Below, piece after piece: positions 23,783 to 35,165 of a stretch of 64,000 nucleotides of DNA (the stretch's first letter is position 1; each line of letters starts with the position of its first letter). The notes beneath the pieces are model-generated. The model had not been told where the DNA came from and searched no databases. It was given only the letters and a program-made list of their open reading frames with translations. The position numbers and the translations under genes are program-made. Location: assembly GCA_963971535.1 (NCBI GenBank), contig OZ020591.1, forward strand, positions 20,105,790 to 20,169,789, read 5' to 3'. Origin of the DNA: Notolepis coatsorum (lineage: Eukaryota > Chordata > Actinopteri > Aulopiformes > Paralepididae).

Positions 23783-25303
23783 CTATGGCCCATTTGACAT
23801 CGACTATCTATCGTTCAATATGTGTTAAAGAAATAATTTTTTCATCCATACATTCCCGTTTTATACCGTGGTGAATATGATTATAGTTTTATAGTAATCC
23901 TGTCTAATCCCAGAAAACGACACTATGCAGCAATACGTGCAATTCACTAAAAACTTTGCCGTTTCTCGCCTGTACACGCTACTATTTCAAAATCACATCT
24001 ATATTATCGGTATTATGTTTCGTCATGAATGCATGAAAGGGTGGGGGAAGGGGGTCGTTTTTTATGCTTTGATCGTCACCAACGGCACACGTTGTGGAGT
24101 AACGTTACACACATATATTGTGATCGAAGTTAAGTCATGGTTGGATCACAGCAGGATTGATACCATATAGGTCGTACCTTCACTAGGATGTACCCCCAAA
24201 AAGAATATTCGAATTATCTGATCGCGAGTCCCAGTATTGGTGTCGATCGTGTCGCCAACATAATCCACCACACATCATGCACCGGGAGCATTTCACGCTT
24301 CTCAATCCGATCGTTATAACCGCTCCATTCGCCTGACCAATAAAAATCCGACCGGAGACTTTTGATCGACGCACAGGCCAAGATATAATGTTTCAAAGGG
24401 TGCTCGATACTGCCACCTGGGTGGATGCGGCCGGTATTGCACTTTGGTATTCTCAGGATGATTCCTCATGTTAACCCAGATGTTCGTGTGCCTGTAATGA
24501 ATGGAAATATCGAATAAAGGAAATAACGATAAAAACCAGACTATACTCGGGTCTGGCCCTGAACGGTTGGCGAGTTAACCCTACTATCATCGGGTCCGGC
24601 GCTGATTGAGTTAATGATAGCTTGCCGATTATTATTTTTTTTTTTTCAATGAATGTATGGTGTCTTTCAAGATAGGTTGACTATTTGGTGGACAAGAGTA
24701 CTGGTAAAGTCTGATTATTATTAGAATATCTTTTTTTTAAGGTATACAGTTTTACCCTGGATACCTTTGCATGATGGAGGGTGTTAAATATTCTGCAGGT
24801 GGAAGGGGTGCATTGATGTACACTCCGATACCATCAGTTGGGAGGGGTAGCACCAGATGTCAGCATTCACCTCTCACATCTACACCTATGCCTGATCTTG
24901 AAAGGTTATCAGACGACAATGATAGTTACTCTGTTCCGCCACAATTGAGGGCAGTTAAATCAGAAGTACCTGACACAAATATTGGGGATCCTTCAGTGGA
25001 GATGGTAGCAGGCATAGCGAAGCAGATTGGGATCTCCATAGGGGAGAGTATTGCCTCATGCCTAGAGTCAAAGGGGAGCAGTGGGATGGGGTACAATGTT
25101 GCAGCGAGTACATTGAACTCAAGTGGGACGGTCCCTTCTCTTGTAAACATGGTGGTGAAGTCTGAGATTAGGGAGCCAGTATGCTTTAGAGGAGATGGCT
25201 CTGATACATGCACAGTGCATGGATGGGAGTCTGTAGTCAGGACATACTTACGCAAAAGGGGGATCTCAGTGGCAGAGCAGGCTGAGGAGGCCATGAGTAG
25301 GTC

Positions 25304-25522
25304 ATGGAGGTCATGGAGGTGGTAGAGTAGGTCATGGAGGTGGTAGAGTAGGTCATGGAGGTGGTAGAGTAGGTCATGGAGGTGGTGAGAGTAGGTTATG
25401 GAGGTGGTAGAGTAGGTCATGGAGGTGGTAGAGTAGGTCATGGAGGTGGTAGAATAGGTCATGGGGGTGGTAGAGTAGGTCATGGAGGTGGTAGAGTAGG
25501 TCATGGAGGTGGTAGAGTAGGT
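25304..25522. repeat. 21-bp minisatellite, left part (about 10 units)
   Basis: Unit GTAGGTCATGGAGGTGGTAG plus A, repeated with few changes. It continues at 31460-31507 beyond the hAT element. Because 21 is divisible by three, a GHGGGRV-type frame runs through it, which is not a gene. Confidence 0.9.
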
Positions 25523-25866
25523 CAGGGGTTCCCAAACTTTTCAGGCCGCGACCCAAAAATAATGGGATCAGAGAGCCGCGACCCCCACTATTATAGGAGG
25601 ATACATTTTTTTTTTTTTTTTTTTTTTAATAAATGGAAATGTATGGTTGAAACATGCACACGTTCAAACGCACACACACTAATAAGCATTGGAGGCTTTT
25701 AACCAGGGCCGGACTGGGGAAATCATTCAGGCCAGGAAATATAGTGCAAAATATAGCCCCAGTCAGGCCACTTTTTAAGCAGGGGGTCTGGGGGTCCCCC
25801 ACCAAGACATTTCTTGTTACAAAGACTTCATTTCCTGCATTCTGGTGCAGGCATTTTTTAATTTTT

Positions 25867-26169: not shown

Positions 26170-26476
26170 CAACAGTTCTGTATCGTAACGGCTCTCACTC
26201 GGCGTCACTCACGCACTGTACCTCGCTTGTGCACGCGCACTGAATAAAATTCCACAATGTACCTTTATCCCAATATTCGTCTGACCACACCCCTCATCAG
26301 CTTACCTTCATAAGCAGGTGTGTGGCCACCTACTCGCCTCCTTCTTCGCTTTCACCACAAGGAAGTGCCTTCGGAGATCCCCACTTGTTGCTAGTTGAAG
26401 AAAGTTGAGACGTGTTTACATTGTGCTTATTTTTTTCTTCTCTCATAACTATTCAAAAAGGAAAATCTAAATCATA

Positions 26477-28113
26477 ATGTCTACCTCGGAGAGTAGACCC
26501 ACTCTTCACCAGCGGTTCTCCATTCCCGCCTCCGTCGTGCGCGCTGGTGCGGGGCTGCTGCCACTTTCGTGGTTGCCAGCCAAGCACGGGAGACAGCCGA
26601 TAGGTAGTTTGCCTCTCCGAGGAGCCGGTGCATCGGTGCCGTCGCTCCGGCGGCGGCCTGATCCCGACTCTGGTTCCTCTGGTTCCGGGGAATCGTCCAG
26701 GATTTGCGACGCAAACTTTTCGCGTCTGCCCGTTCACGTCGCAAGATGGTGCCCTGCAGGCGCGAACGGCCTGGGTTTGGGGAATTGCTGGAGACCAGCG
26801 AGGATGCGTCGGTCTCTGCATGCCCGATGGAAACTGAGGATTACATGGAAGAGTCGGACGGATTCTTGTTTGAAGGCCCTGTGGAGGCGAGTATCCCTCC
26901 TGTCCAGGTAACACTGGAGGGGGGAGAAATGTCTCCTTGAGGCGCATTGTTCGAGGATGTCGGGGAACCACCTTGGCCTCATCGGCAGGATGCCCTGCTA
27001 TCAGCCACATCAGACTGTGGCTCCTCAACCGGTCGAAGCCTGCTGCATGTGAGGGATGCGGGTTCGGTGGAGGAAGGTCAGCAGGGGGAACTGCGGGCTT
27101 TGTTCCCCGAGCTCATGGCGGTAGCTGCCACTGCAAATGGCGTGCCGCTGCCGCAGCCATTGACTGCTCCTGCCCCCGATGATCTCATAGGTCATCTCTG
27201 GCAGCGTCGCCCGGTGAGAGGGGTGGACGTTGTCTACCCATTTTTCCCCTCAATGGGGGCCTATGTTCGTCGGGGCCAGGTGGTGTCTCACATCATGGGA
27301 CTTACCCCCGCCTACGTACCAGTTACGCGGGTGGCGGGGTTGGTTGAAGGTATGAGAGAGGGCGTGCCACGGCTTGATAGGCCGATGGCCGCTCTCCTCT
27401 GTCCGGATGTGGTGTGGGAGCCGTTATGCAAGCCGGTTCTCCAAGGAAAATCGGCTAGGCGATTGGCATATTGGGGTGACCAGTCATTTGTCGCTGGTAC
27501 ACAGTCGCTGGCTGCTGTTTCTAACATCGCACAGCTGGCTAGATTTGTATCGGGGATAATGACGGGCGGCACGGATCTGACCGAGGTGCAACACGATCAG
27601 ATCACCCAGGTGGCAGGAGCTGTCCTGCATCTTACCCAGGTGCAGGCCATAGCCTCGGGGAAAGTGCGCGCCCTGGCTACCCTGATCCAGCACCACCTTT
27701 GGCTGGAGCAGGCTCGAGTGCCAGAGAAGAAGAGAGCCCCTCTTCTGACGGCCAACCTCTCCGATGCTGGACTATTCGGGAAGGCCCTGCAGCTGATGAC
27801 CTCAACGTGCAGAGAGATGGCAGAGGAGAGATCCGTTCTCCAACCCCATTTTCCGCCTCCCGTCCTTGCCGGTGGAGTCAGAAGGCTTCCACGACGTCGA
27901 GCTACCTCCGCCGTGCCTACCACTGCCTCCGCCGCCACTGCTGCCCCGTCCAAGAAGGCCAGGAGGAGAGACGGTGATTCTGCTGCCGCCGGCCCATCTA
28001 CGACCGGAGGAGACGGTAGGGAACGACGAGTCCAGCAGCCGATTATCTACCGTCCCTCCGGGGCTTCTCAGGGTGGCAAAACCCGAGCGGCTCGAGGCAG
28101 CAGACGCCGCTGA
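26477..28113 (+). pseudogene. DIRS gag-like region
   Basis: Fossil part. The longest open stretch, which ends at 28113, encodes an alpha-helical segment with AIASGKVRALATLIQHHLWL, then LTANLSDAGLFGKAL, closely in the style of DIRS Gag proteins (a helix bundle, a HLWL block and a D-A-GLFG block). A basic, Ala-rich tail with RRR/KK clusters follows. The role in a living element would be particle assembly. The region as a whole appears broken. It is followed by AATAAA at 28179. Confidence 0.6.
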
Positions 28114-29616
28114 GTGACTTTTTCCCCCTGTGGTCCCCTCTATACCCTTCCCCGGCCCTCTCATGATTATTGTGCCTAATAAAAAGTCCCCTTAAAGGGG
28201 GACTGTATTTTTTGGCCAAACAAACTGTGTGTTTCTTCACCAATACATATGATGAGATTGCGAAATGTGAATCTGCATTGTTTACATTGAGGGATGAGTT
28301 ACGTTCGTGTTATGAGATTAAGCAAGGTCTGCAAGCATACACTCAGTCATAGAAAGGTTCTATCTTAGCCTGACGCTCCACATGCAGGTAGAAGCTGGTT
28401 GTATGATCTGTTGCTTAAGCAAAGTAATGTTGATCCACAACACTGTTGTGTTAGTTGCAGTAATACTCGTATACACACGTTCCACGGCCTAGCCGTTATA
28501 CTCTCTGTCAGTGTTTTTTCTATTTACAACATAGAAAGCGGGTGTGGGATTCACACACACACACGACTTGGTTTTGTTATAAATCCTGTTCACAGTCTGT
28601 GGGTAGCGGGCATTGTATTAGCTTATGCTATACATTAGCGTTCTACCAAAGGTCTCAAAATGCTACAGTTGTTATTGTGTGTAGGGGAAAAAGGGTTTTT
28701 TGTGAGGGGGTGCCGAATAAACCCCTCCTTCCCACTTGATTGGTCAAGGGGATTTTTTTCTCATCTCCTGTTGAGCCAGTCAGGGCCGAGCCGTTCAACG
28801 ACTTGGCGGGGGAGGGGGGGGGGGGGGGGGGGGGGAGGGTTGTCCTGACGCGGCTCCTATTACAAACAGGAGTTGTGTGCGGGGTTTCCCCCCGTCATAG
28901 CATATACATTGCTATGACGACGGCTTCCGTGAGTTAGATCTTTACGTAAGGTCTGTGGTGTTAAAGTGTCAGGTTAGAGCGTAGGGCTTACGGGTCTGCT
29001 ACGCTCGATTTTATGTGTAAACTTGAGTCAGTTGGTCACGTGACTCACAGTTGCCATGTCTTTTTCATACTACGACTCATGTGGGAAGGCTTCTGGGGAA
29101 TTTCGGTCTAAACCCTCTAAATAAGGGGTGACTGGATGTAAAAATATAAACAGTTTTTACTCCCGGCTGTGCAGATTGGGTTTTATGCTGTTGATGCTTC
29201 TTTCTTTGTTATTAGAAAGAGTTGGGGTTAGGGAGCATCACACCCCTCTTGTCGTTCCCCTGGGCGCCTTGGGGATTCAATGAAAGGTCTAAATAGCCGT
29301 CATCATATCAGGGGGATAATGATGGAATGGATCTGAACATACGTAGAGGGGTCTAATGCCCATGTTTAAGCTCAACACGCATATCTGCCCCTTCTCCTGG
29401 AGTTGGCATGTCGGCGTGGTTAGGGCACGGGACTGGTTCTGGTCACGCTGGTCCGGCTCAGTTGAACCCGTCCGCCGGGGATGCAGATCTTCTGTTCTGG
29501 TACCCTGAGGGACTTGGGCTTTTTCCAGGGGGAGAAATGCCAGGTCGGTCGGGTGTCACAGGGTTAGGCGCTATGGAGACCCTTGTGGGTACGTAGTACT
29601 CTGCACTGTCGTAATG

Positions 29617-29735
29617 GCTTACGGCCGTGCCAACCTGTACACGCCCGATCTCGTCAGATCTCGGCCGCTACGCAGGTTGGTCTTGGTTAGTACTTGGTTA
29701 GGAGACCTCCTGGGAATACCAAGTACGGGGTGCTT
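29617..29735 (+). pseudogene. 5S rRNA-like sequence inside the DIRS element
   Basis: 119 bp that align end to end with vertebrate 5S rRNA: GCTTACGGCC start, CACGCCCGATCTCGTC, then the Pol III control elements in order. Box A is altered (CGCTACGCAGGTTGG for AAGCTAAGCAGGGTCG), the intermediate element is kept (TTAGTACTTGG), and box C is close (GTTAGGAGACCTCCTGG), followed by GAATACCAAGTAC. By eye about 85 percent is conserved, with changes in paired positions, so it is a pseudogene or a 5S-derived promoter module. It is on the same strand as gag. No T-run terminator follows directly. Confidence 0.85.
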
Positions 29736-30850
29736 GGGGCTGGTTCTCCATTCTTTTCGCTCTTCTCTTACGCATGGCGAAGAGGGGCCTGTTGGGGTGG
29801 TCTTTGACCTCCTCGGGGGACCCTGTGCTCCCCGTATCGCCGGGCCCGGTCCGAAGTAATGTTTCGTCGACCCGTAGGCCTGGGATAACCCTGTTGGAAA
29901 CTGAAACACTTGTACTGCGGTAGTGCACGCAGGTACGTTTTGGAGTTTTTTCTTGAGGGGTTATGGGACCAACCGCCGCATAGGGTAACGACTGGGTGGT
30001 TGGTTCTCTGGTGTGTTGGTGCAGTGTCAACTCCCGGGTTGCCCGGTTGAGTGTGCCCCTGCACGTTCATGACGTCTGCCAATCGTGTCAGCCTTCGCTG
30101 CCTCATTGAGGGAGGCTTTGTCATGGTGGTCAACAACGCCAGCATACGCCCCTTCCGCCGGGGCGGCTGTTTCAGCTGACCCCTCTGGCGCCTGTCTCGT
30201 CCGCAGTACTCCAGGCTCGGGTTACAGCCTGTTGCCTGGTTTCCCCGGTGCGCTGCCTGCTTCCGTGGTAAGCCTTTGGTTCTTACGGCCATGCTGACTG
30301 CCTGTCCTGCAGGGTCAGTGTGCCAGGCGGTGTGCTATTGGGGGGACAGGGCCCGCTCTTGTGAGGGGCCTTTGTCCGAATACGCTGGCGATGTGGGGGG
30401 CGGGGTCACTAGGTGACCACCTGGTGGGGTCTTGATGCTGGCATCATGGACTTCTCCGGGCCCCCGTTTTTCAGGGGGTCCAGTCCCTTTGGTGGGTCTG
30501 GGTCTTCCTTCGCGCTCCGCTGCTACGGCCTTGCCACAGGGTTGGGTTGCTCTTGACCCTGTGATTTCTGGGGGCAGTAACGAGGTTGTTCCTTCCGTTC
30601 GTTCCCGGGTGGCATGCGGGTTGTGCGTGTGGGTAGTCGTGGGGTCAGGCCACGGTCTGCTCACCCTGTGCGTTGAGTTGCTTGAGTGCCTCTTCGCACG
30701 GTCGGGTCCGTCGCCTTCCCGTGATCCCCCAATAGGGGGGGTGCCCTCCATTAGGGGGGGTCGGGGGGGCTCGGTCCTCCCTGATCTGATGGTTGTGGGG
30801 GGCCTCAGCGGGGTGTATTTGTCGGCTGATGGCTCTCGCTCGGCCTCCCT

Positions 30851-30941
30851 TGTGCGTGAGTGACGCTGAGCGAGAGCCGTTACGATACAGAACGTTAGGT
30901 TATAACTATAACCAAGTTCTGTTAGTAATGGTGACGCTCGG
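30851..30941. other. Internal complementary region of the DIRS element
   Basis: The first half (to about 30891) is the reverse complement of the element's left tip (26175 on). The second half is the reverse complement of its right tip (to 31158). DIRS elements are believed to use this region to circularise their cDNA. Confidence 0.85.
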
Positions 30942-31459
30942 CATCCGACGCCGCTGCAGCCCTTGATCTCACCTTGTGGTGAAAGCTTGGGAAGGAGGCG
31001 AGTAGGTGGCCACACACCTGCTTATGTCAGACGAATATTGGGATAAAGGTACATTGTGGGATTTTATTCAGTGCGCGTGCACAAGCGAGGTACAGTGCGT
31101 GAGTGACGCCGAGCATCACCATTACTAACAGAACTTGGTTATAGTTATAACCTAACGTTTTTTGTAAGGGTCCCCCCTCCACCAATCACATGCGGCTCCT
31201 TTTGTGTGTGTGTGTGAGAGCAAGAGAGAGAGAGAGAGATAGTTCTCCAACTTGTGTGAGTTGCAGTGATCTCCTGGTTGTTCCCCACCTAGGTTATCTA
31301 ACTATTGCGCTGCTGCAACTAGAAACACTGTCCTGGCCTGCTTCTAAGTTCAGTGGCATGACTGCAAAAAAAAGATTTTTTTTTTTTATCATCTGGCGAC
31401 CCCCCCGCGGCGGCTCGCGACCCTCCTGTGGGTCGCAACCCCGACTTTGGGAACCCCTG

Positions 31460-31507
31460 GAGTAGGTCATGGAGGTGGTAGAGTAGGTCATGGAGGTGGT
31501 AGAGTAG
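31460..31507. repeat. 21-bp minisatellite, right part
   Basis: About two more units of the array at 25304-25522, on the far side of the hAT element. Confidence 0.9.
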
Positions 31508-31693
31508 GCATACGCAGTAACTTCTCTTTTGATCTGTCTAGTGGTCCAGGTCCTATTTTTGATGCTGAAACAGCACTTTAGTGACACTGTTTTCTCCACT
31601 GTGCCTTTAGCTGAGCAACCTTTTGATTATTGGCTCAGACTGAACAGGGCTATGGACGTGACTGAGGACTGTCTAAAGAAACAGAGTAAGACA

Positions 31694-32221: not shown

Positions 32222-32314
32222 AAAATACCTCAGAGTAATATCCATGTATTTTAAATATCTCAGGGTAATACCCATGTATTTTAAATACTTCAGGGTAATA
32301 CCCATGTATTTTAA
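32222..32314. repeat. ~30-bp minisatellite, left part
   Basis: Units of CTCAGGGTAATACCCATGTA plus TTTTAAATA. The array resumes at 34656 after the TTAA element. Confidence 0.85.
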
Positions 32315-34506: not shown

Positions 34507-34655
34507 ATAATTGACGTTGAATGGGCCATAGTAATGTCAATTTAGCAATACAATTAAAAAAGTTATAGCCCTGCAAAGAAGGGGAACTTCTCCATAGACA
34601 AATAGAGCTGGCAGAGGATGGTATAAGGATGTACATAAGCGTGGCAGAGAAAGTG

Positions 34656-34850
34656 TTAAATACCTCAGGGTAATACCTTAGGGTAATACTCATTTATTTT
34701 AAATACCTCAGGGTAATACCCATGCATTTGAAATATCTCAGGGTAATACCATGTATTTTAAATACCTCAGGGTAATACCCATGTGTTTTAAATATCTCAG
34801 GGCAATACCATGTATTTTAAATACCTCAGGGTAATACCCATGTATTTTAA
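34656..34850. repeat. ~30-bp minisatellite, right part
   Basis: Six or seven more units of the array at 32222-32314, with variable unit length. Confidence 0.85.
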
Positions 34851-34857
34851 ACTCTGA

Positions 34858-35165
34858 TGCACAGCATGCGTATAAAGCAGGCTACTCCACAAGCATCGCA
34901 CTGACATCCCTGACTGATGATTGAAACAGATTGATGGGAAATCAGTTGTGGGTGTTGTGCTTCTGGACTTCAGTGCAGCCTTTTATGTCATAGACCATAA
35001 GCTGCTACTCATGAAACTTCTGTTTTATGGATTTAAAGACTCGGCTACTGATTTCATGAGGAGTTAGTTACTGATTTAACAGAAGACAATGTGTTATTTT
35101 TAATGGTACCTTTTCAAATATTGAAACACTTCAGTGTGGCGTTCCACAGGGAAGCTGCCACATCA
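34858..35165 (+). mobile_element. LINE RT fragment
   Basis: Conceptual reading gives QHAYKAGYSTSIALTSLTDD, VVGVVLLDFSAAF, IDHKLLLMKL and, after stops and a shift, a GVPQG-like block at about 35130-35150. These are the early RT motifs of a Jockey-group LINE. Only about 300 bp remain. Confidence 0.65.

Follow-up and report, generated by a model that had tools for sequence, protein, structure and literature searches.

A family of DIRS1-type retroelements in the genome of Notolepis coatsorum carries a full-length segment derived from 5S rRNA. The copy from which we started lies in the window, i.e., the whole stretch of 64,000 nucleotides analysed here. On the sequence data, it is likely that the family gained one complete host 5S, in sense orientation and at one site, presumably by template switching, and that it amplified this 5S as a drifting passenger.

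The element and its 5S segment in the window

Judged by its sequence plan, the 5S-bearing element is a non-autonomous retrotransposon of the DIRS1 type. Its features were:

26175..31159, + strand: complete element, 4,985 bp, with GTT at both termini, inverted ends and two internal complementary regions overlapping in AAC
26175..26344, + strand: left inverted terminal repeat, with 26198-26285 complementary to 31026-31113 (99%) and 26309-26344 to 30991-31026 (100%)
26471..28113, + strand: gag-position reading frame (gag identity putative), interrupted in the window copy, with open frames at 26471-26911 and 26941-28113
30852..30893, + strand: left internal complementary region, 40 of 42 positions complementary to the left start of the element (26175-26216)
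30891..30945, + strand: right internal complementary region, 53 of 55 positions complementary to the right end of the element (31105-31159)
30891..30893, + strand: AAC, the 3-bp circular junction common to both internal complementary regions, complementary to the terminal trinucleotide GTT
30991..31113, + strand: right inverted terminal repeat, complementary to the left repeat
31114..31159, + strand: right extension, complementary to the right internal region only

The element shares with DIRS1-like retrotransposons its inverted ends, the pair of internal complementary regions, the 3-bp circular junction, the NTT termini and the right extension. As described in the available text of PMC3266345, the right extension of these elements pairs only with the right internal region, and GTT/AAC examples are known. 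The 5S-bearing family differs from the elements described there in having the 5S segment, and in that no reverse transcriptase, RNase H, methyltransferase or recombinase was found in it. Within the ten bases on each side of the window copy, no repeat suggestive of a target-site duplication was seen.

None of the eight open frames of at least 91 aa in the window element had a Pfam match at E 0.1. For the gag-position frame, no Pfam family passed the cut-off and the AlphaFold2 model was unusable (pLDDT 38.3). Another copy had this frame uninterrupted (554 aa), again with no Pfam or PDB match. Genome-wide profile searches with PF00589 and PF05869 did not identify an autonomous partner: PF05869 gave no match, and the ten loci examined among the 18 PF00589 matches all belonged to one other recombinase family. 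Because the window element lacked Pfam matches, and the recombinase and methyltransferase profile searches recovered no DIRS partner, we called the family non-autonomous. The ten PF00589 loci (L074-L083) represent a single tyrosine-recombinase family, which we take to resemble Crypton/KIAA1958. Several of them share a 419-aa open frame, suggesting a recently active element.

The surroundings of the element were repetitive. One 21-bp minisatellite unit flanks it on both sides (window 25274-25555 and 31430-31521), adjoined by the inverted stretches GGGTTCCCAAA and TTTGGGAACCCC. The arrangement suggests that the DIRS element was inserted into what is presumably a hAT-like element, itself lying within the minisatellite. 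A 30-bp tandem repeat (CTCAGGGTAATACCCATGTATTTTAAATAC type) forms two further arrays, at 32224-32302 and 34642-34868, ~2.4 kb apart.

The 5S segment and its parts, including box A, the intermediate element (IE) and box C, were located as follows:

29612..29616, + strand: left joint of the insertion, with the element's TAA, then TG, then 5S nt 1; 11 copies without 5S, L073 among them, have this joint empty
29617..29734, + strand: full-length 5S rRNA-derived segment (RF00001, 63 bits), aligned to the host 5S genes
29665..29680, + strand: box A part, altered; compared with the host, A49, A50 and A55 are changed and C63 is lost
29691..29724, + strand: IE/box C and helix IV-V part, with none of 30 non-CpG columns variable in 19 copies

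The Rfam 5S_rRNA model (RF00001) was covered from position 1 to 120, with E 7e-11 and a score of 63 bits, where the gathering score is 38. This was the sole Rfam match above the gathering score in the 64-kb window. A preliminary description of this DNA had proposed a 5S-like module inside a DIRS-type element, between a gag-like region and the internal complementary region. The Rfam score, the inverted ends and the internal complementary regions agree with the first point. As to the position, the segment lies between the end of the gag-position frame (28113) and the internal complementary regions (30852-30945), starting 3.4 kb inside the 5-kb element. The same description had called the IE and box C recognizable, which holds loosely: the window's subfamily, represented by L002, has 18 changes relative to the host gene L009, including positions 66, 68, 83 and 93, and the window copy carries another change, private to it, in its box C part. 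Features of a functional 5S rRNA gene are missing, in that helix I is not closed (5 of 9 pairs in the window segment) and box A is altered.

The host 5S genes were recovered from the same genome (3.42 Gb, 4,787 contigs). In the RF00001 search, 47 scored matches, out of 112,738 first-look candidates, reached 108-117 bits; 46 of them were on contigs C7 and C29, and one on C4. Among the loci listed, the host genes form tandem arrays, mostly with a 232-bp spacing and, for two of them (L010 and L011), of ~1,074 bp. A comparison with the genomic 5S genes had been suggested at the outset; it gave a full-length window segment with ~87% identity over nt 1-108 to most of the array copies among those listed.

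Copies with and without the segment across the genome

Other DIRS copies carry the 5S at the same place, a check that the preliminary description had proposed. With the 119-bp segment as query, all 40 scored matches (of 2,252 candidates, window copy included) aligned end to end at 99-100% identity. The 17-letter left junction between element and 5S had 5,428 exact occurrences in the genome, and its reversed control none. We recognized the segment in element context at the seven other top-match loci (L002-L008) and in four longer stretches (L069-L072). One of the latter, L071, represents a second 5S-bearing type, matching the window type at the ends and in the 3′ half alone and having the 5S at the same place. 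Its 5′ body differed, had no + strand frame above 132 aa and is apparently non-coding. Seven of 30 left-end loci matched the window over only ~26175-26407, as L071 does. We considered L069 and L070 as autonomous copies for their long distance from 5S to element end, and rejected them, the extra sequence being inserted between matching blocks.

A sister subfamily lacks the 5S. In L073, whose main pieces are 80-89% identical to the window type, the two flanks are joined directly: the joint reads CATAA-GGGGCTGG, versus CGTAA-TG-5S-TT-(A or G)GGGCTGG, or TTA-GGGGCTGG in five copies, in 5S-bearing elements. A 708-bp query over this joint gave 40 scored relatives (of 4,320 candidates, L073 included), all 96-100% identical. 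All 40 span 699-713 bp, and thus none holds the extra 120 bp of a 5S. The 18-letter empty joint occurred 576 times in the genome as an exact match, and its control not at all. Related copies without the segment had been named beforehand as a sign of a merely later insertion. Such a 5S-less sister exists, but the insertion preceded thousands of copies and is therefore more than a later insertion into the window copy.

The 5S-less set split off with a support of 0.966 in an unrooted tree of the joined flanks (~300 bp, one genome; 28 copies with and 11 without 5S, leaving out L084, which misses its right edge, and L003, L006 and L007). Next to it were the 5S-bearing copies L085, L095, L103, L100 and L101, all with a host-like 5S. 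The mean flank distance to the 5S-less set was 0.11-0.12 for L085, L095, L100 and L101, and 0.18 for the window. Three 5S-less rows (L106, L109 and L113) had long branches. Because the tree is unrooted, the direction could in principle be reversed, with the 5S ancestral and the 5S-less subfamily having lost it by exact deletion. Such a deletion would need to coincide with both 5S edges to within a few letters. The most host-like 5S is found in those 5S-bearing copies that lie closest to the 5S-less set, which is what a gain predicts. We consider the loss extremely unlikely, and the gain of the 5S by the family is the direction that we infer.

The 5S states form a ladder. Over 118 positions, the differences from the host gene L009 numbered 3 in L114 (one of them, A112, also occurring in host genes), 4 in L118, 5 in L116, 7 in both L117 and L100, and 18 in L002 (one of them a deletion). 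Six early-type copies were fetched, two of which are left out of these counts: L115, in which a deletion spoils the ungapped count, and L119, joined elsewhere at ~nt 23. In L119, a rearranged copy, sequence similar to the terminal region of the element continues directly into the 5S at that point. The early copies match the host gene in box A and also in box C, and the later ones have A49, A50 and A55 changed and C63 lost. A 25-letter string combining the intact box A with the DIRS-specific T66 had 452 exact copies in the genome, versus 6,403 for a 24-letter derived string with the altered box A (controls 0 for both); the ratio is rough, as exact matching undercounts older copies. The first 100 of 4,253 places, all on C1 (the 4,253 include host arrays), comprised 94 with T66/T83, six with T66/A83 and none with the host G66.

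Probable capture and fate of the segment

The most host-like of the copies fetched indicates what was inserted. In L114 the identity with the host runs from 5S nt 1 to the last letters of the gene, and the host spacer is missing at both edges. Two extra letters (TG) stand at the 5′ joint of the insert. Compared with the empty site, the insert edges of the early copies showed no SINE body, tail or clear duplication. Since only the 5S was inserted, without SINE body or tail, we infer that one host 5S rRNA was captured at the RNA level, probably through template switching. Similar joints could also arise by RNA ligation or DNA repair. Chimeric insertions of LINE-1 with small RNAs, 5S among them, have been explained by ligation, template switching or twin priming (PMC13174262, in the portion available). 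Internal deletions or rearranged joints in the copies L050, L084 and L119 fit with frequent template switching in the family.

Of the origins offered in the preliminary description, a captured gene fits the bare, full-length, host-like 5S between element flanks. A 5S-SINE nested in the element was the second. In its favor, SINE3 elements are 5S-derived and have been proposed as the source for Cassandra and Ajax (PMC10886601, available text). The early copies, however, have nothing but 5S between the element flanks, with no body, tail or clear target duplication, and the 5S-less sister joins its flanks at the 5S edges, making this origin exceedingly improbable. We also noticed a match to 5S nt 1-12 at ~30283-30295, of 11 letters in the window and 12 in the 5S-less L073 (P 0.0175 and 0.006, with windows picked post hoc), and treated it as chance.

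Under the proposed capture, the reverse transcriptase working on element RNA would have changed templates to a 5S rRNA, copied its full length and returned to the element RNA, with non-templated letters being added at the 5S 5′ end. The insert lies away from the element ends and the internal complementary regions, and did not stop replication. It would then have been carried through several rounds of subfamily amplification into >5,000 copies, drifting en route from an almost unchanged 5S until box A was altered and the terminal helix broken.

Divergence was compared in 20 copies, every fifth of the first 100 left-junction places, a sample biased in that all are on C1 and have an intact left junction. 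In 19 of them (L084 dropped), the divergence from the majority was 3.55% for the 5S, 3.69% for the left flank and 3.92% for the right flank; with L084 kept, the values were 4.62, 3.95 and 6.45%. The equal divergence of 5S and flanks speaks against overall constraint, and the segment is most likely a passenger.

One block was quieter than the rest. At 29691-29724, none of the 30 non-CpG columns varied, versus 62 of 322 overall (19 copies; P 0.0012, with the block chosen post hoc), and there were 2 differences in 646 cells when CpG columns were included. The left flank has a stretch just as quiet, near 29480, and A83 and G93, both within the IE/box C block, changed between subfamilies. We take the invariant block as a weak hint of constraint.

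This block and the early copies, in which both boxes match the host gene, would suit a working internal Pol III promoter, making RNA for the family or keeping chromatin open, as proposed for Cassandra and Ajax; a T run is also found ~20 bases downstream of the segment in the window. A promoter used by the family was the third option of the preliminary description, and the data do not support it. The commonest form has an altered box A and a base lost between the boxes (6,403 versus 452 exact copies). Of the 100 places listed, 94 have A83 of box C changed. As the 5S begins 3.4 kb inside a 5-kb element, an RNA initiated at that point could not serve as a full-length template. By the lengths given in the accessible part of PMC10886601, TRIMp3 elements are also far shorter than this element. 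Overall, we find a working promoter very unlikely.

Helices II-V keep 23 of 25 pairs (simulated P 0.037), whereas only 5 of the 9 pairs of helix I are left, and fixed changes affect 3 of 50 positions in stems II-V versus 10 of 50 in loops (Fisher P 0.07). Both patterns would be in line with a segment acting as RNA, its 5S-like fold binding uL5/uL18 or TFIIIA and aiding packaging, export or stability. Against this stand the overall 5S divergence, equal to that of the flanks, and a folding energy that is not unusual (P 0.12). The window 5S stretch itself had a folding z-score of -2.0. The sole restored pair (68/107), changed on both sides, is limited to the window's minor subfamily, and the main form keeps the mismatch. 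Loop bases are among the changed ones, which we take to include positions contacting proteins in the real 5S. A role as RNA is thus unlikely in our view. Strong structural selection was rejected given the weak signals (P 0.037 for pairs, 0.07 for stem vs loop), and so was the helix II pair AACCTG/CAGGTT as a compensatory change, the host 5S genes having it too.

A domesticated module would combine several of these observations. A Pol III gene within an element copied by Pol II may at first have hindered the family, the disabling of box A may have preceded the expansion to >6,000 copies, and the IE/box C part and helices II-V may have been kept to serve element RNA or chromatin by 5S mimicry. 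We regard this scenario as unlikely, and continue to favor a passenger that drifted after its capture.

Comparison with known 5S-carrying elements

To our knowledge, the 5S-carrying retroelements described so far are SINE3, LTR-type TRIMs and one-off LINE-1 chimeras. Our literature search, which covered titles and the starts of abstracts and left out most subscription journals and Repbase entries, found no report of a 5S inside a DIRS element. The whole record is present in one genome: an empty-site sister, early copies with a nearly intact 5S, intermediate states, and an altered form that reached thousands of copies. The family is therefore a good system for studying the capture of a small host RNA by a retroelement, and it also lends itself to following what happens to an internal Pol III promoter once it sits in an element copied by Pol II. 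As a practical warning, many 5S-like matches in such a genome are parts of transposons.

SINE3 elements have a 5S head, followed by a body and a tail. They share with the DIRS-type family a 5S-derived sequence spread by retrotransposition. They are another type of element, and the DIRS-borne 5S has neither a SINE body nor a LINE-like tail.

Cassandra, like the family described here, is a non-autonomous retroelement family with a 5S-derived segment. Its 5S promoter sequence is located in the LTRs, keeps box A, IE and box C, and mirrors changes of the host promoter (PMC10853983, available text), whereas the DIRS-type family has a single internal 5S in which box A decays. Ajax likewise has a 5S-derived segment in a non-autonomous retroelement. 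According to the accessible text of PMC10886601, it is an LTR element 421-434 bp long, and its 5S sequence is partial, being limited to the promoter; the DIRS-type element, in contrast, measures 5 kb and has a full-length 5S. The features of TRIMp3 elements were not found in the DIRS-type family, which has a single internal 5S and inverted ends without LTRs, and in which box A, IE and box C are not all conserved.

LINE-1/5S and LINE-1/U6 chimeras resemble the DIRS-type family in that a small host RNA is joined to retroelement sequence. According to the portion of PMC13174262 at hand, these chimeras are single events at the LINE-1 5′ end, with the 5S usually truncated and antisense. Unlike them, the DIRS-borne 5S is full-length, in sense orientation, internal and amplified.
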